DNA of 64,000 bases from Dysgonomonas sp. PF1-14 (lineage in GTDB: Bacteria; Bacteroidota; Bacteroidia; Bacteroidales; Dysgonomonadaceae). Position numbers and translations under genes: made by a program. Below, one piece after another: positions 8,205 to 62,625 of the stretch (position 1 is the stretch's first letter; the number at the start of each line of letters is the position of its first letter). The stretch is from assembly GCF_029892965.1 (NCBI RefSeq), contig NZ_JARXWN010000008.1:1-64000 (forward strand), given 5' to 3'. The notes under the pieces are model-generated. The model did not search any database. It saw only the letters and a program-made list of their open reading frames with translations, and was not told the origin of the DNA.

Positions 8205-8260
8205 ATCTTCTCGGTGTATAGTGCATATAAAAATATATGTATCTTATTATTTGTGTTTTA

Positions 8261-8384
8261 ATTGCCTCCAGCTTTAGCTGGAGGATAGAAGCATGATATA
8301 GCGAAAGGCTTTAGCCAAAACCGTTTCGACTCAAGTCGCTTTCTATCCGGTTACATTATCCACGACTTAAAAGTCGTGGCAACT
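8261..8384 (+). repeat. R1 (REP/BIME-like) element, copy A, full
   Basis: ATTGCC end, hairpin CCTCCAGC-TTTA-GCTGGAGG, short hairpin GGC-TTTA-GCC, hairpin CGACT-CA-AGTCG, then CCACGACTT/AAGTCGTGG and a GGCAACT end. The two ends are inverted copies of TTGCC. Confidence 0.85.
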
Positions 8385-8435
8385 AATATACTTGAAAAAT
8401 AATATCTTATCATCCTATTTGTATAGAAGATATAA

Positions 8436-9962: not shown

Positions 9963-9992
9963 AGTTGCCACGACTTAAAAGTGGAGGCAACT
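9963..9992 (-). repeat. R1 element, copy B, collapsed 30-bp form
   Basis: AGTTGCC-ACGACTTAAAAGTGG-AGGCAACT. One side matches the right hairpin and the other side the left hairpin of a full element, so the interior has been lost between the two hairpin apices. It is followed by the TAATGCGC flank typical of full copies. Confidence 0.75.
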
Positions 9993-10182
9993 AATGCGCT
10001 GACAATAAAGTGTATATAATTCTATCGAATATAAACTCTAATGCTAAGGTATAAAAATATGCTGTTGTTATCATATAATTGGCTGTATTTCTTTAATTAT
10101 TTTTAGGAACTGTTTTACTTTAATACAGATAAGTATTTGTAAAGGCATCCGATATTTGTTAATTTTGAAAAAATAAAAACTA

Positions 10183-10376
10183 AGTAACTGTTTAAATCTG
10201 ATTGGCACTCTTATTTTGTATTATTTCAAATATATTTTTTTCTTTTTATTCGCAGGTTTAGCGGGCTAAACCAAGAGTGAAAAGTAGAAAATAGAGAAGA
10301 AAGAATAAAAATAAGAGCCAAAGAACAACAAAAAACAGTTATATGAATATTTTTTGGTCTAATTTAAACAATTACT
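10183..10376 (+). repeat. R2 MITE-like element, complete (R2a type)
   Basis: Terminal inverted repeats AGTAACTGTTTAAATCTGA and the complement of (TC)TAATTTAAACAATTACT. The centre has the palindrome GGTTTAGCGGGCTAAACC. Nearly identical to the copy at 56366. Its right end is only 8 bp from the ATG of the next gene, so it supplies the entire upstream region. Confidence 0.8.
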
Positions 10377-10384
10377 AAAGGAGT

Positions 10385-10741
10385 ATGAAGAAGTGTTATT
10401 TATTAATAATCGCTGTTTTCTGCATTACTTTTTCAGCCTGTACTTCGCAAAGCTACGATCTGGAAAGAATGGGGGATGCCGTAAAAAGCCATTTCCGATA
10501 CCGCGATCAGGATAACGGTACGGTTACCAAAATAGAGTATCTCAAAGCACTGTCGTATGAAAAAATACCGGAAGACAAAAGAGAGAAGCCCGATGAAGAA
10601 TATTTATGCAAAGTCTACGTGAAAGGTACATGGGCTTATGATAATAGTTATCGTGTATTTAATATGAATGATACATTAGACTGTTTTTTCGACAAAAGCA
10701 AGTCATTGTTAAGAATAGGAGAAATTAAAGAACATTTTTAA
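10385..10741 (+). CDS. Small lipoprotein, unknown function
   Basis: 118 residues, lipoprotein signal with Cys19 (TFSAC). The mature part is hydrophilic with two short Cys-containing strands (EEYLCKVYVKGTW, DTLDCFFDKS). I do not recognise a family. A good ribosome-binding site AAAGGAG sits 5 bp before the start. The whole promoter zone is an R2 element, so transcription must start inside the element or upstream of it. The MscS gene follows 108 bp later in the same direction. Confidence 0.7.
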   Translation: MKKCYLLIIAVFCITFSACTSQSYDLERMGDAVKSHFRYRDQDNGTVTKIEYLKALSYEKIPEDKREKPDEEYLCKVYVKGTWAYDNSYRVFNMNDTLDCFFDKSKSLLRIGEIKEHF

Positions 10742-12305: not shown

Positions 12306-12498
12306 ATGTTTTCAATCGCGGTGCAAATATAGATATTTTTATTATAATAACAAGCTCTAAAGCAAAAAAAAACACTTGCAATTTGCATTCTCAGCGCAAA
12401 TCATAAGACAATCAATATTCTATGCCGAAAATAAATATTCTATCACGCAATAGAGTTTATATTCAATAGAGTTGTCAGCGTTTTGTTGTTAGTGTATT

Positions 12499-12614
12499 AG
12501 TTGCCTCCACTTTTAAGTGGAGGAGAGAAAGGGATGTAGGCGAAAGACTTTAGTAAAAACAGCTTCGACAAAAGTCGATAGCTATTCTGCCAATTATCCA
12601 CAACCTCAAAAGTT
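12499..12614 (+). repeat. R1 element, copy C, right end decayed
   Basis: AGTTGCCTCCACTTTTAAGTGGAGG left end, AAGACTTTAGT and TCGACAAAAGTCGA interior hairpins, then CAATTATCCACAACC where the right hairpin has decayed and R3 copy 2 begins at once. Confidence 0.75.
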
Positions 12615-13125
12615 TTCTACTACGCGCAATCACAGATTGCTTGTATTCCTTTTGCCCGAAGCCGCAAAAGGAATCAAAAAGTCTTTAGCGCCACGCTTCA
12701 TAGGACGACCCGTTATAGGGCTTAAAGGCTAAACAAAAAAACTCGCTCACAACTTTGTATTGTTCCAATCAACGGTTAAGCTCAAACACGTTTTTTGTTT
12801 TACGCCTTTCTCACCCTACGGGTGCCCCGTCCATAAAGCTAATGGCGCGTGCTGACGCTCGATTGAGTGACGATTAGCCTGCCTTGTCGGCGCGTGCGAC
12901 TCTGTGCATTAGCTCCGCAAGCGGGCACCTGTCCGGTGCAGGTGGCGTAGAAGGGGATGGGGCGATAGCCCGTTTGTCCCCTTCAGCCGTCAAACCGTTG
13001 ACAGGTCGCTGAGGAGCGAAGCACTAGACTTTTGTTTACTTTTGGGCGATGCAAAAGTAAAAACAAGCACAGGAGTGCGCGTTAGTCATGAGCTAAATCT
13101 ATTAACTCCAGACTAAGATTGAGGT
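12615..13125 (+). repeat. R3 element, copy 2 (longest form)
   Basis: Runs from TTCTACTACGCGCAATCAC to GACTAAGATTGAGGT. It shares long near-identical blocks with copies 1, 3 and 4, including the GCATTAGCTCCGCAAGCGGG and CACCTGTCCGGTGCAGG palindromic parts. It holds no credible coding sequence. The remaining 13126-13379 stretch holds nothing recognisable except ATTGAGGTTATACAAATTG near 13307, which recurs right after copy 1 (5226-5248). Confidence 0.75.
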
Positions 13126-14252: not shown

Positions 14253-14370
14253 TTCTGCGTGTTGAAATAATCGGTAAATATAGTGAGAATTGTATCAATC
14301 CTACTGTTGTTGCCGATATTTATTAGTGCTTGTTCCAAATAGGAATATAATCGTTCAATATCTGCATTTT

Positions 14371-14490
14371 AGTTGCCTCCTGCTTTTGCTGGAGGATAAA
14401 GAGATGGCTAACAAAAAGGCTTTATCCAAAATAGCTTTGACTAAAGTCGATTCCTATTTGTCAATTATCCACTTAAAATTCGTGGCAACT
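14371..14490 (+). repeat. R1 element, copy D, full
   Basis: AGTTGCCTCCTGCTTTTGCTGGAGG left hairpin (loop-side changes relative to other copies are compensated on both arms), internal AAAGGCTTTATCC and GACTAAAGTC parts, right end ATTCGTGGCAACT with a partly eroded right hairpin. Confidence 0.8.
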
Positions 14491-14556
14491 AACACACTTG
14501 ATAATAAGTAATGCGAATCAGTATTTGATGTTATATCAAATAAACGTTCAATTATT

Positions 14557-18204: not shown

Positions 18205-18310
18205 TATCTTAGTCCTTTCTATGTCTTTACTAAACAAAAAATGTAAGCTTTTGTTTTTACGTCCGGCTTACATTCTTTGATATATCGTGTGAACCGATAG
18301 TTGATTCGGT

Positions 18311-18434
18311 AGTTGCCACGCCTTTTGAGGCGTGGAATTGTATCCATCTTAAAAAAGACTTTAGTCTAAATCAATTTGGCTAAAGCCTTTTTCTTATTTC
18401 TCTTTATCTCCTCCACTTAAAAGTGGAGGCAACT
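18311..18434 (-). repeat. R1 element, copy E, full, inverted orientation
   Basis: AGTTGCCACGCCTTTTGAGGCGTGG ... TTGGCTAAAGCC ... CCTCCACTTAAAAGTGGAGGCAACT. The first hairpin has compensatory changes (CGCC/GGCG in place of CGACT/AGTCG). Its last base abuts R2 at 18435. Confidence 0.85.
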
Positions 18435-18620
18435 TAGAGCCTGTTTAAATTTTATTCGTTTAGGTTTTCAGAACTATTTTTGGAATGATTTTTTCTTATC
18501 TGAAGCGCGAATAGCGGGCTATTCAAGCTGAAGAAAGGGGAAAATCGGACAAAAAGAGACTGAAAATGAACGAAAAATGAACGATAACAAAATGTTTTGG
18601 TAAAATTTAAACAGGCTCTA
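18435..18620 (+). repeat. R2 MITE-like element, complete (R2b type)
   Basis: Perfect 20-bp terminal inverted repeats TAGAGCCTGTTTAAATTTTA, with central palindrome GAATAGCGGGCTATTC. An inverted near-identical copy lies at 26784-26967. Confidence 0.85.
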
Positions 18621-24390: not shown

Positions 24391-24410
24391 ATTTTTGATC
24401 TATCAGTATT

Positions 24411-24523
24411 TAGAGCCTGTTTAAATTTGACCGAAAATATTTCATATAACTGTTTCTGATTATTCTTCGGATCTTATTTTTATTCTTTCTTCTCTATTTT
24501 CTACTTTCCACTCTTGGTTTAGC
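24411..24523 (+). repeat. R2 element, left half joined to R3
   Basis: TAGAGCCTGTTTAAATTTGACC start through CTACTTTCCACTCTTGGTTTAGCC, ending exactly in the central palindrome, where R3 (inverted) takes over. Confidence 0.75.
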
Positions 24524-24637
24524 CTTTAAACCCTTTAACGGGTCGTCCTATAAAGCGTGGCGCTAAAGACTTTTTGATTCCTTTTGCGGCTTAGGCCAAA
24601 AGGAATGCAAGCAATCTGTGATTGCGCACAGTAGAAA
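24524..24637 (-). repeat. R3 element, copy 4, short, inverted
   Basis: AACGGGTCGTCCTATAAAGCG ... CTTTTGCGGCTTAGGCCAAAAGG ... GCAATCTGTGATTGCGCACAGTAGAA is the reverse complement of the first 110 bp of copies 1-3. Confidence 0.75.
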
Positions 24638-24696
24638 ATAAACAAATATATAATTTCAATCCCTGATTTGCATTAATAACTAAATTACAATCTATT

Positions 24697-26783: not shown

Positions 26784-26967
26784 AGAGCCTGTTTAAATTT
26801 TACCAAAACATTTTGTTATCGTTCTTTTTTCGTTCATTTTCAGTCTCTTTTTGTCCGATTTTCCCCTTTCTTCAGCTTGAATAGCCCGCTATTCGCATTT
26901 CAGATAAGAAAAAATCATTCCAAAAATAGTGCTGAAAACCTAAACGAATAAAATTTAAACAGGCTCT
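26784..26967 (-). repeat. R2 MITE-like element, complete (R2b type), inverted
   Basis: Reverse complement of the 18435-18620 copy with few differences. Terminal repeats AGAGCCTGTTTAAATTTTA; centre GAATAGCCCGCTATTC. Confidence 0.85.
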
Positions 26968-27055
26968 AATTCAATTTCAGATTCACCATATATAATATAT
27001 TTAGATATATTTTGTACCTTGTGTTGTCTATTGTAAACTTTAATCTTCTGACACT

Positions 27056-33476: not shown

Positions 33477-33512
33477 AAGCACGGGCTGTGAAGTTCGTGC
33501 TTTATTTTTTTA
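33477..33512 (+). terminator. Terminator of the FISUMP gene
   Basis: AAGCACG / CGTGCTT stem followed by TATTTTTTT. Confidence 0.75.
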
Positions 33513-33514
33513 TT

Positions 33515-33617
33515 CTTTCTTCAGCTTGAATAGCTCGCTATTCGCGCTTCAGATAAGAAAAAATCATTCCAAAAATAGTTCTGAAAACCTAAACGAATAA
33601 AATTTAAACAGGCTCTA
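33515..33617 (-). repeat. R2 element, half copy (R2b type)
   Basis: Matches the 3' half of the copy at 26784-26967 from TTTCTTCAGCTTGAATAGC to AAATTTAAACAGGCTCTA. The other half is absent; it starts just after the FISUMP terminator. Confidence 0.8.
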
Positions 33618-33642
33618 AATCTATTACAGAAAAGCATTCAAT

Positions 33643-36845: not shown

Positions 36846-36874
36846 ATTGCCTCCACTTTCAAGTCGTGGCAATT
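36846..36874 (+). repeat. R1 element, copy F, collapsed 29-bp form
   Basis: ATTGCCTCCACTTTCAAGTCGTGGCAATT: left arm of the left hairpin fused to the right arm of the right hairpin. Same join as copy B in the opposite orientation. Confidence 0.75.
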
Positions 36875-44155: not shown

Positions 44156-44503
44156 GGTTAATAAAATTTAGTGAGCATTAAATAGATACTATTAACGGCT
44201 AATTTACGGGGAAGTTTTGGGAAAAGGTGTAACTATTATGACTTTTTTTACACAATGAGAGATAGATATTATTGATAACAAGAGAAATAGCAGTATTTGT
44301 AGAGGATATAATATGTCTGATTTCCTTACGTGTAACCTTTAGTAACTGTTTAAAAGAAAAGGTTGTCATCACGACAACCAATCTTTATTGTTAACCTTAA
44401 AATCTAATACTATGAAAAACACATAATATTAACAACTGTATTTTAGAAATGGTTCATCGCAAAAGTGAACTATTCTGTTAATAAAACATAACCCGATTGT
44501 TCG
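44156..44503. other. Intergenic region with hairpin and orphan start context
   Basis: Contains the hairpin GGTTGTC/GACAACC (44361-44379), then TTATTGTTAACCTTAAAATC and a four-codon frame ATG-AAA-AAC-ACA-TAA at 44412-44426. This looks like the leader and first codons of a gene whose body has gone. An R2-like end (AGTAACTGTTTAAA) is just upstream at 44341. Confidence 0.4.
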
Positions 44504-49452: not shown

Positions 49453-49481
49453 AGTATTAGTTTTTATGTTTCTATTTCTTA

Positions 49482-49539
49482 TTTGGCTAAAGCCCTTCTA
49501 TTTTACTCTCTGTTCCTCCACTTAAAAGTGGAGGCAATT
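49482..49539 (-). repeat. R1 element, copy G, half, directly downstream of the transposase gene
   Basis: TTGGCTAAAGCCC then CCTCCACTTAAAAGTGGAGGCAATT. The right half only; it ends 2 bp before the transposase stop codon. Confidence 0.8.
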
Positions 49540-49541
49540 AA

Positions 49542-49964
49542 CTAAAATTTATATTTTGCTATAAACTCATCGAATTCTTCCTGGAATGTTTTTTTCCTGT
49601 GATGCTCTTCTTGCTTCATTATATATCCTCTCACTTTTTCAATCATTGATTCCGAAACAGACAGTGCAAAATACTCATCTTGCCATTCGAACTTTTGCTC
49701 TGTCAATCTATTCTTATTTATCCAATATGAAGATTCTCCTTTTATTAATTGAATAACCTTCTGAATAGACTGATCTGTACTTAATGATATTATACAATGA
49801 CAATGATCTGAATAGCCCGAGACTGTATCAATAAAAATACCTTTATTCCTTGAATTCTCAATTATATGCTGCCATAGCTTATTCCTAACATCTGCTGTTT
49901 GGAGCATCTGAATCCTGTTTTTTGTACTCCATACACAGTGGATATAGACTTTTACATATGGCAT
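49542..49964 (-). CDS. REP-associated-type tyrosine transposase (Y1, IS200-like)
   Basis: 140 residues, a single Y1_Tnp domain. The HUH motif is HCH at residues 54-56 in GYSDHCHCII. The probable catalytic Tyr114 lies in VRGYIMKQEEHHRK, with the Gln and Glu/His context of Bacteroidetes IS200-like/RAYT proteins. Length is typical and no frameshift is seen. No tnpB-type gene is adjacent and no IS-end hairpins of standard IS200 type were recognised; instead R1 elements flank it on both sides (49482-49539 and 49988-50107). This arrangement is that of REP-associated transposases. Confidence 0.85.
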   Translation of the reverse strand: MPYVKVYIHCVWSTKNRIQMLQTADVRNKLWQHIIENSRNKGIFIDTVSGYSDHCHCIISLSTDQSIQKVIQLIKGESSYWINKNRLTEQKFEWQDEYFALSVSESMIEKVRGYIMKQEEHHRKKTFQEEFDEFIAKYKF

Positions 49965-49987
49965 AAATATTATATTTATCCTTTTTC

Positions 49988-50107
49988 AATTGCCTCCTGC
50001 TTTAGCTGGAGGTTATCTATTTGTTCAATTAAAAGACTTTAGTCAAATCCTTTTTGGATAAAGCTTCCTTGTACCCTTTGTTCCTCCACTTAAAAGTGGA
50101 AGCAATT
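49988..50107 (+). repeat. R1 element, copy H, full, directly upstream of the transposase gene
   Basis: AATTGCCTCCTGCTTTAGCTGGAGG left, AAGACTTTAGTC centre, CCTCCACTTAAAAGTGGAAGCAATT right. Both ends carry the GGAGG-type hairpin, unlike the other full copies. Confidence 0.85.
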
Positions 50108-50120
50108 TACTACTTAATTT

Positions 50121-56215: not shown

Positions 56216-56365
56216 TTGATCTTTTTGTTGCAGGGGATTTAGAACGGATATAGGATAGTATGCTATTCATAATCGTAGTTTTTTGTCCCTGTTTCTCCCC
56301 CTCGGGCAGATTAAGAGGGGCTGTTCCCTTTACAAATATAGACTATACTTTCCGCCCGAAGTTTA

Positions 56366-56559
56366 AGTAACTGTTTAAATTTGATTGGCACTCTTATTTT
56401 GTATTATTTCAAATATATTTTTTTCTTTTTATTCGTAGGTTTAGCAAGCTAAACCAAGAGTGGAAAGTAGAAAATAGAGAAGAAAGAATAAAAATAAGAG
56501 CCAAAGAATAATCTGAAACAGCTATATGAAATATTTTCGGTCAAATTTAAACAGTTACT
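56366..56559 (+). repeat. R2 MITE-like element, complete (R2a type)
   Basis: Terminal inverted repeats AGTAACTGTTTAAATTTGA, central palindrome GGTTTAGCAAGCTAAACC, flanked by TA on both sides, a possible 2-bp target duplication. Near-identical to the 10183 copy. Confidence 0.85.
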
Positions 56560-56634
56560 TATATTCACAAGCAAAGTTTTTAGAAATCTTTGCCGATGGA
56601 GAGTTTGGAATACAGCATTATCTAAAATCTAAAC

Positions 56635-59157: not shown

Positions 59158-59228
59158 TATAAATTATCTATATTAGAAACTAGAGTTTATATTTAATAGA
59201 ATTATATTCTATTTATTATTTACAAATT

Positions 59229-59352
59229 AATTGCCCCCAGTTAAAAGTGGAGGAGATTAAGTGATATCAGTAAGGGGCTTTAGCCAAAACAGCTTCGACT
59301 AAAGTCAACACCTATCCTGCCAATTACCCACGACTTAAAAGTCGTGGCAATT
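59229..59352 (+). repeat. R1 element, copy I, full
   Basis: AATTGCCCCCAGTTAAAAGTGGAGG left, GGGGCTTTAGCC and TTCGACTAAAGTC centre, CCACGACTTAAAAGTCGTGG right, GGCAATT end with TAATGCGC flank. Confidence 0.85.
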
Positions 59353-59376
59353 AATGCGCTTACAATAAACAGATCC

Positions 59377-61109: not shown

Positions 61110-61228
61110 GTGTACGGACTAATAGTATGAGTTAGCAAAAATACGCTTTCGGTTTAAGAAACCATTTTAATTTTATATAAATTATGCCAATCAGCATTTG
61201 AAATTATATGTTTTGCTGCCTGCGTATT

Positions 61229-61351
61229 AATTGCCTCCACTTTTAAGTGGAGGAGATAAAGTAATGCTGACGAAAGGCTTTAGCCAAACAACTTCGACTA
61301 AAGTCACTACCGATTCTACTAATTATCCACGACTTAAAAGTCGTGGCAACT
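61229..61351 (+). repeat. R1 element, copy J, full
   Basis: AATTGCCTCCACTTTTAAGTGGAGG left, AAAGGCTTTAGCC and TTCGACTAAAGTC centre, CCACGACTTAAAAGTCGTGG right, GGCAACT end. Flanks GCGTATT and AATGCGC extend the terminal inverted repeat. The best-preserved copy. Confidence 0.9.
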
Positions 61352-61473
61352 AATGCGCATAAATTTACTTATTACATTCATCGTAGCAGCTTCTTAACCT
61401 AAACTTAACGATACAACGTTTCTGTTTTTAAATCTTTAAGCTTTACTTTGCCGTATATTTTTTAAAACACCGA

Positions 61474-62515: not shown

Positions 62516-62599
62516 GAAAGGCTTTAATCCAAAACAATTTGGCTAAAGCCTTTTTCTTTATTTTCCTTTATCTCCCCCCACTTAAAAGTGGAGGCAACT
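62516..62599 (-). repeat. R1 element, copy K, partial
   Basis: GAAAGGCTTTAATCC, TTGGCTAAAGCC, then CCCCCCACTTAAAAGTGGAGGCAACT. The other terminal hairpin is missing. It begins 19 bp after the porin stop codon. Confidence 0.8.
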
Positions 62600-62625
62600 A
62601 AAAGACAGACAATGAATATCCCTTA

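Follow-up and report, generated by a model that had tools for sequence, protein, structure and literature searches.

What does a lone tyrosine transposase act on when its gene has no typical IS200 ends and is framed by a repeat that recurs far beyond it? The question is raised by tnpA in the window, the whole stretch of 64,000 nt analyzed here. The earlier observation that a dispersed hairpin repeat, R1, frames this transposase gene is confirmed. The 140 residues, the HCH motif at 54-56 and the Tyr114 that the earlier note had ascribed to the product proved exact when the gene was checked. The gene and the R1 places of the window are as follows.

8259..8385, unstranded: copy A, R1 inverted dimer, intergenic
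9965..9990, unstranded: copy B, R1 "double-foot" remnant, in which the outer arms from the two ends are joined at the hairpin apex; an O1-type terminal repeat lies at 10023-10040
12498..12620, plus strand: copy C, with an intact left half (12498-12560, by the model) and, by eye, a decayed right half; an O1-type terminal repeat lies at 12451-12468
14370..14491, unstranded: copy D, R1 inverted dimer
18310..18435, unstranded: copy E, R1 inverted dimer, abutting another dispersed repeat at 18434
36847..36872, unstranded: copy F, R1 "double-foot" remnant, a single hairpin from two outer arms
49480..49540, minus strand: copy G, R1 half-unit with its partner half missing, 1 nt from the tnpA stop codon and in the same direction as the gene
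49542..49964, minus strand: tnpA, 140-aa Y1 HUH transposase with HCH at 54-56, Tyr114 and the signature Y---Q--HH
49987..50108, unstranded: copy H, R1 inverted dimer, 22 nt upstream of the tnpA ATG
59228..59353, unstranded: copy I, R1 inverted dimer; O1-type terminal repeat at 59181-59198
61228..61352, unstranded: copy J, R1 inverted dimer
62516..62600, minus strand: copy K, one half-unit (62536-62600, by the model); of the second half, by eye, the inner hairpin is present and the outer one missing

The framing of the gene by copies G and H, also claimed in that note, is reproduced by the half-unit model. All nine further places named there carry R1 sequence, but not all are whole copies: those at 9965-9990 and 36847-36872 are lone double-foot hairpins, and those at 12498 and 62516 are incomplete by eye. 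With up to two mismatches, AAAGTGGAGGCAA occurs 14 times in the window versus 1.75 expected, a count reached by none of 100 shuffles. The R1 places overlap no ORF of at least 120 aa, and no Rfam family matches them at gathering scores. Elsewhere in the window, positions 44349-44422 on the minus strand match the Bacteroidetes FopS sRNA family of Rfam (79.1 bits). Other dispersed repeat families of approximately 200 nt (TAACTGTTTAAATTT..., TAAGAGCCTGTTTAAATTT...) lie at 56363-56570, 10180-10387, 24409-24641, 18433-18619, 26784-26981 and 33508-33630; for the repeat at 56363, nine or more additional copies at 94–97% occur in the genome.

The tnpA product matches Pfam Y1_Tnp with an E-value of 1.8e-26, and it is the sole Y1_Tnp match found in the 4.58-Mb window genome (G000). 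It passes the cut-off of the NCBIfam IS200 model NF033573 (62.3 bits; cut-off 55) and scores below that of the REP-associated tyrosine transposase model NF047646 (32.8 bits; cut-off 80). Both models are matched at E<=0.001 by all 43 aligned homologs, the cut-off comparison being that of the first member. The predicted structure (pLDDT 89.2) has an IS200/IS605-type Y1 TnpA fold: in a Foldseek search, the nearest solved structures are ISDra2 TnpA (1.8e-08) and IS608 TnpA (5e-08), which are also the nearest by sequence, and TnpAREP (4er8) is the weakest among the 30 folds at E<=0.001. Of 82 homologs, 79 have the Y---Q--HH signature, in place of the Y---NP motif that the portion of Quentin et al. 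2018 (PMC6006769) used here gives for class 2; DHCH as the HUH motif and WQ are present in all 82. Membership of RAYT (class 2) is ruled out by the NF047646 score, the tyrosine motif, the tag of the repeat (described below) and the fold ranking. The enzyme is an IS200-class Y1 transposase that falls outside the RAYT/TnpAREP family. A multi-copy mobile gene with ends, as in IS200/IS605, was not found in the window genome, which holds one Y1 gene as far as detected. Y---Q--HH, WQ, low copy number and occurrence in Bacteroidota are features of subclass 1.2 in the same portion of PMC6006769. Judged by signature rather than by position in the published tree, the DHCH clade would belong in subclass 1.2 or beside it.

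R1 is an inverted dimer of half-units of approximately 62 nt. Each half-unit contains, in order, an AATTG tag, an outer hairpin whose stem covaries, a free spacer, and an inner hairpin (GGCTTTAGCC) that is close to invariant. In the phylum alignment A3 (141 distinct rows, taking in 150 of the 154 matches at homologous loci), the consensus shows an outer hairpin of 8–9 bp with T(G/T)AATTGCC at its foot, a weakly conserved spacer of approximately 22 nt, and then GGCTTTAGCC(A)AA. The edges of conservation in this alignment are sharp, beginning at the tag and ending at the inner hairpin, which is nearly unvarying in the phylum set. The hairpin foot bears the tag T(G/T)AATTG and not GT[AG]G. Among the 15 window half-units, 22 of 165 pair cells of the outer stem are double changes versus 7.3 in shuffles, with the structure drawn from the same sequences. 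The phylum set, in an alignment fitted to the model, has 206 double changes versus 53 when shuffled. Among the matches listed for the window genome, all 59 adjacent pairs have their tags outward (other orders, 0); 27 matches are unpaired, two of which are both readings of one double-foot hairpin.

The earlier note had proposed a genome-wide count of R1. A half-unit covariance model trained on the 15 window half-units only gives at least 145 matches at no fewer than 79 sites in the window genome (E<=0.1; 150 candidates scored). An exact hairpin pattern has 44 occurrences there versus 0 for a reversed control. R1 dimers also form a tandem array with a 189-nt period at C10:13609-14300. The densest 64 kb found is that of the window (C8:8259-70369), with 11 of the 79 listed sites versus 1.1 expected (Poisson 2.7e-8). 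Among the sites listed, nine are left after subtraction of the two gene-side sites (Poisson 2.5e-6), and the densest 64 kb on any other contig has five. The clustering around tnpA possibly reflects local hopping. In another gene-bearing genome (G246), the repeats are, by eye and among the matches listed, not clustered around the gene beyond the adjacent ones, and therefore we do not claim local hopping as a general property.

Homologous genes were collected from elsewhere in Bacteroidota as the best 80 of 239 relatives, on contigs from one genome per species, with identities of 63–72%; their genera include Flavobacterium, Chryseobacterium, Algoriphagus, Cyclobacterium and Lacihabitans. With the window-trained model at E<=1e-6, 63 of the 80 loci have a unit within 1 kb of the gene, and 52 have a gene-facing unit within 100 nt past the stop codon. 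Only four of 148 matches lie more than 1 kb from the gene (150 of the 154 matches examined, two in L033). Within 100 nt upstream, units point to the gene in three loci and away from it in five, and a strongly matched inward-facing pair encloses the gene in two of the 80. A hand-made descriptor finds 0.895 units/kb within 1 kb versus 0.011/kb beyond, with 68 of the 80 loci positive and none in shuffles. Downstream, the unit closest to the gene faces it in 56/60 loci; upstream, the closest unit points away in 18/23. A lax scan, which is partly circular because its weights came from A3, that is, from units of the same 80 loci, finds a gene-facing unit within 170 nt past the stop in 77/80, a same-direction upstream unit in 34/80 and both in 31/80. 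Its background includes 24 of 504 far segments above threshold and the other downstream strand above it in 53/80, and locus L075 was kept despite a short downstream flank. We place weight on the window-trained model and the hand-made descriptor over the lax scan.

A neighbor gene on the same side and strand is common to another locus in 60 of the 80 (single linkage), and the two largest neighbor clusters have 30 and 11 members, mostly Flavobacterium. The number of flanking units differs among close Flavobacterium species with the same neighbors, and some gene loci bear arrays of extra units. The shared neighborhoods suggest vertical inheritance of the gene, yet the loci in the window genome and its congener G019 differ. 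Nine loci with more distant Y1 genes of the window's genus (L034-L042) gave no R1-unit match up to E=1; seven of L034-L041 also encode Y---Q--HH enzymes, without R1 flanks.

At 15 of the 80 loci, the end of the outer hairpin together with its tag (...GGCAATT) is exactly repeated, with the next copy no more than 14 nt on. All 22 cases of this stutter lie on the coding strand. Same-orientation units are in any case commoner near the gene (96/139, by the descriptor); from that share alone, and with relatedness ignored, the chance of such a result is approximately 3 in 10,000 for all 22 cases and 4 in 1,000 for all 15 loci. When the search was widened, the tag was present in 23 of the 35 short tandem repeats lying no more than 1.2 kb from the gene and in 0 of the 33 lying farther away. 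The stutter mostly has a period of 12–20 nt, consisting of the 3′ arm of the outer hairpin and the tag (L062, L063, L105, L115, L131 and others). By eye, its break point lies at the hairpin apex in many cases, matching the double-foot remnants of the window. Neither the window nor the 58 loci fetched from its genus showed any stutter. It could have arisen by template slippage at a hairpin or by repeated cutting and joining by the enzyme, and its restriction to the coding strand might be the trace of a strand-specific Y1 enzyme.

Co-occurrence of gene and repeat was evaluated in 296 Bacteroidota genomes that are at least 90% complete, with a strong homolog defined by E<=1e-34. The phylum model of the repeat, R2, was built from gene-flanking units, and R2 matches were counted among up to 18 listed per genome. 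The 50 genomes with a strong homolog include two with broken genes (a stop in G309 and 90 residues in G218). At least one R2 match is present in 43/50 genomes with a strong homolog versus 31/246 without (Fisher 2e-24), where the gene's own neighbors count as matches. Because gene-side units themselves match R2, the counts for at least five repeats (32/50 versus 17/246; 4e-18) and at least ten (23/50 versus 12/246; 2e-12) are fairer. Kinship is handled by collapse to genera only, and at that level at least one repeat is present in 26/33 genera with the gene versus 13/107 without (1e-12); this count uses 51 gene-bearing genomes because G151 (1.7e-34) is included. The repeat is present in 18 of 84 genomes with weaker Y1 matches only and in 13 of 162 with no Y1 match at 1e-10, and 17 of these 31 repeat-only genomes are in genera that also hold the gene. 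The gene is largely single: 45 of the 50 genomes have one strong match and five have two.

Seven of the 50 gene-bearing genomes have no R2 repeat. By eye, two of them (G183 and G286) bear similar two-hairpin units at the gene locus, and G279 bears a TTGCC...GGCAA double-foot hairpin, with one repeat match in a separate listing. At the G279 locus (L239), a related Y1 gene (DHVH, Y---Q--HH) is surrounded by three copies of the double-foot hairpin TTGCCACTACCTTAAGGTAGTGGCAA. The more distant Y---Q--HH enzymes of G101 (L240) and G115 (L241) are flanked, again by eye, by hairpin pairs whose sequences differ. Subclass 1.2 as a whole may follow this two-hairpin plan.

Within the window's genus, the gene–repeat link is not seen. 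Among 25 genomes, a close homolog is present in two (the window genome, and G019 at 73%) and R1 matches are present in ten. G019 has four half-units among the matches listed, two of them beside the gene, which is framed by an inward-facing pair. Half-units occur without a close homolog in G001 (at least 29), G007 (at least 91), G008 (at least 35) and G018 (at least 20), and no Y1 match was found in G008 or in G018 (88% complete). The earlier note had regarded R1 abundance in genomes that never had this transposase lineage as evidence against a link, and the many copies in G008 and G018 go part of the way there. Carriage of R1 by another MITE-like element accounts for part of the failure at genus level. 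G007 has other Y1 genes and no close homolog, and its fetched R1 copies sit inside a different inverted-repeat element of 219 bp, with a terminal repeat (O1) TAGAGTTTATATTCAATA, TA at both ends and R1 in the middle (for example, L159). Of its 20 top-scoring copies fetched, 17 were readable, and each of these, by eye, has an end of this element on at least one side. O1 terminal-repeat matches number 71 in G007 versus five in the window genome; the O1-type termini in the window stand beside copies B, C and I. The G007 locus inspected for an autonomous O1-ended transposon (L213) has two ORFs of >80 aa and, by eye, no obvious transposase. Part of the R1 spread is thus hitch-hiking, and abundance alone is no proof of TnpA action.

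Outer inverted repeats exceed the 99% shuffle level at 4/22 sites in the window genome, 16/19 in G007 (the O1 element), 1/8 in G008, 1/4 in G001 and 1/1 in G018, nine listed sequences without the core having been dropped. The four sites in the window genome have one common outer repeat, and the idea that R1 is generally inserted in the center of other palindromes was rejected. By eye, R1 lies within a second type of outer inverted repeat, GCAGGGCTGTTAAGTTCT, at 6 of the 20 sites fetched from the window genome (L187, L189-L193). The syntenic intergene lacks tnpA in G007, G013 and G014, and the G019 homolog lies at a different locus from that in the window genome. In G001, a lone R1 half-unit occupies exactly the place of copy G; we take it for a remnant after gene loss, with a repeat older than the gene equally possible. 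No clean empty R1 site was found among these, the boundaries in G007, G013 and G014 being blurred by divergence, and the copy-K site differs from that of G018 by more than R1.

In our best reading, R1 and tnpA act like a REP/REPIN system, one that recurs across Bacteroidota with its own two-hairpin repeat. That an IS200-class, subclass 1.2-like Y1 transposase runs it is, in our judgment, moderately probable. The mobile unit would be either the half-unit with its two hairpins or R1, the inverted dimer of such half-units, and the resident single-copy TnpA would act on it in trans as single-stranded DNA. TnpA would bind the hairpins, the inner one (GGCTTTAGCC) by sequence and the outer stem by shape, and would cut at the AATTG/CAATT tag through Tyr114. 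The repeat would thus be moved or multiplied while the gene mostly stays put. The structure of R1, its dispersal, stem covariation and tag-outward dimers, its co-occurrence with the gene in the phylum and the neighbor genes common to many gene loci are observed; binding, the place of cutting and mobilization in trans are inferred. One Y1 gene versus at least 79 R1 sites in the window genome counts for this reading, as do the units beside homologous genes, the phylum-wide co-occurrence, the covariation, the sharp edges of conservation, the tag-outward dimers, the common neighbor genes with their varying numbers of flanking units, and the coding-strand stutter. Against it count the asymmetric flanks, with the nearest upstream unit pointing away from the gene in the 18 of 23 loci noted above, the failure of the link within the genus, the repeats in genomes without a strong homolog, the gene-bearing genomes without an R2 repeat, the share of dispersal due to other elements, the differing position or absence of the gene among congeners, and the failure to find a clean empty R1 site. 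A broader and more tentative proposal, whose chance we put slightly below even, is that REP-type systems arose at least twice, in the class 2 RAYTs and separately in a Bacteroidota subclass 1.2 system with a two-hairpin, AATTG-tagged, lineage-varying dimer, the coding-strand stutter being the footprint of strand-specific cutting and rejoining by the enzyme.

The main rival differs from this best reading in degree. MITEs or PATEs of IS200-type elements are short gene-less copies bearing ends that are recognized by a transposase elsewhere, and R1 might be such a non-autonomous derivative of an IS200/IS605-like element whose full form, tnpA between two inward-facing half-units, transposes whole and rarely. 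The IS200-class enzyme, the different gene loci in the two congeners and the coding-strand bias of the stutter, which fits IS200-type polarity, all agree with it, as does the inward pair around the gene in G019, in 2/80 loci by strong matches and in 31/80 by the lax scan. It is less easily reconciled with one gene copy versus dozens of repeats in the window genome, with a single strong match in 45 of 50 genomes and two in the other five, with neighbor genes common to another locus at 60/80 loci, with nearest upstream units that more often point away from the gene, or with the arrays of extra units at the gene. We regard it as rather unlikely, although it is the strongest of the alternatives.

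The hitch-hiking seen in G007 raises the further possibility that R1 is passive cargo of other mobile inverted-repeat elements, its link with tnpA being a leftover of common origin. The 17 of 17 readable copies and 71 terminal-repeat matches of G007, the other outer inverted repeat at six fetched sites of the window genome and the separation of gene and repeat within the genus all fit this explanation. It is improbable given that only 4/22 tested sites of the window genome have outer repeats above the shuffle level and that five O1 termini face at least 79 R1 sites there, and it leaves the phylum-wide tie to the gene unexplained. An immobile structural or regulatory element, concerned with transcription ends or mRNA stability and with hairpins merely also used at tnpA, would suit units that form hairpins and overlap no ORF of at least 120 aa in the window. 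The conserved tag, the tag-outward dimers, the tandem array, the patchy distribution among congeners, the tie to one transposase group and the lack of any Rfam family at gathering score on the R1 places make this very improbable indeed.

If the REP/REPIN-like reading is correct, the IS200 branch too has had a Y1 transposase converted into a system that spreads repeats. Subclass 1.2 enzymes, whose description from Bacteroidetes and Cyanobacteria included no DNA partner, would gain one that has a defined tag, two hairpins and a dimer form and can be tested in vitro, and the stutter arrays and double-foot remnants would offer places for mapping cutting and rejoining.

Comparison with known systems shows what is shared and what is not. 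The earlier note had proposed a REP/RAYT-type system; the single-copy gene, its framing by a dispersed hairpin repeat and the recurrence of the pairing in the phylum bear this out, but the enzyme is not a RAYT/TnpAREP. As in REP/REPIN (BIME) repeats with RAYT/TnpAREP (class 2, REPtron), in the portion of PMC6006769 used here, a single-copy Y1 gene is flanked by a dispersed intergenic palindromic repeat, with inverted dimers, a gene neighborhood common to many loci and "double-foot" remnants. Unlike in RAYT systems, the enzyme is IS200-class by NCBIfam and fold, the tag is AATTG/CAATT rather than GT[AG]G, and the R1 half carries a pair of hairpins, of which the inner has a nearly invariant sequence. 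The view that REP systems are known mainly from gammaproteobacteria needs correction, as the same portion of PMC6006769 already reports REP-type systems beyond them, including in Bacteroidota, for subclasses 2.4 and 2.6. According to that text, non-GTAG repeats outside the classical RAYTs likewise accompany class 3 TnpAY1 genes and those of subclass 2.6, the latter with atypical secondary structures, but their signatures (Y----Q with a CnGA foot, and YIH[QN]NP, respectively) both differ from that of the enzyme here.

IS200/IS605 elements (IS608, ISDra2) have in common with this system the Y1 fold and catalytic residues, gene-side hairpins and a possible coding-strand polarity; unlike them, it has no second gene copy in the window genome, dozens of gene-less copies and two-hairpin tagged units. 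It differs from MITEs and PATEs in having a single gene-bearing form, often in a common neighborhood. A further comparison is with the subclass 1.2 TnpAY1 proteins, which the consulted portion of Quentin et al. 2018 (PMC6006769) describes as Y---Q--HH enzymes of low copy number, generally without typical IS200 ends and found mostly in Cyanobacteria and Bacteroidetes. The enzyme here resembles them in Y---Q--HH, WQ, a length of approximately 140–150 aa, low copy number, occurrence in Bacteroidota and the lack of typical IS200 ends. The table in that study gives REP as "no" and HUH as DH[IV]H for subclass 1.2, whereas here two-hairpin dispersed repeats flank the gene and the HUH motif is DHCH. 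No published REP partner for subclass 1.2 was found in the open-access literature searched. The new point is a dispersed repeat tied to a subclass 1.2-like enzyme.
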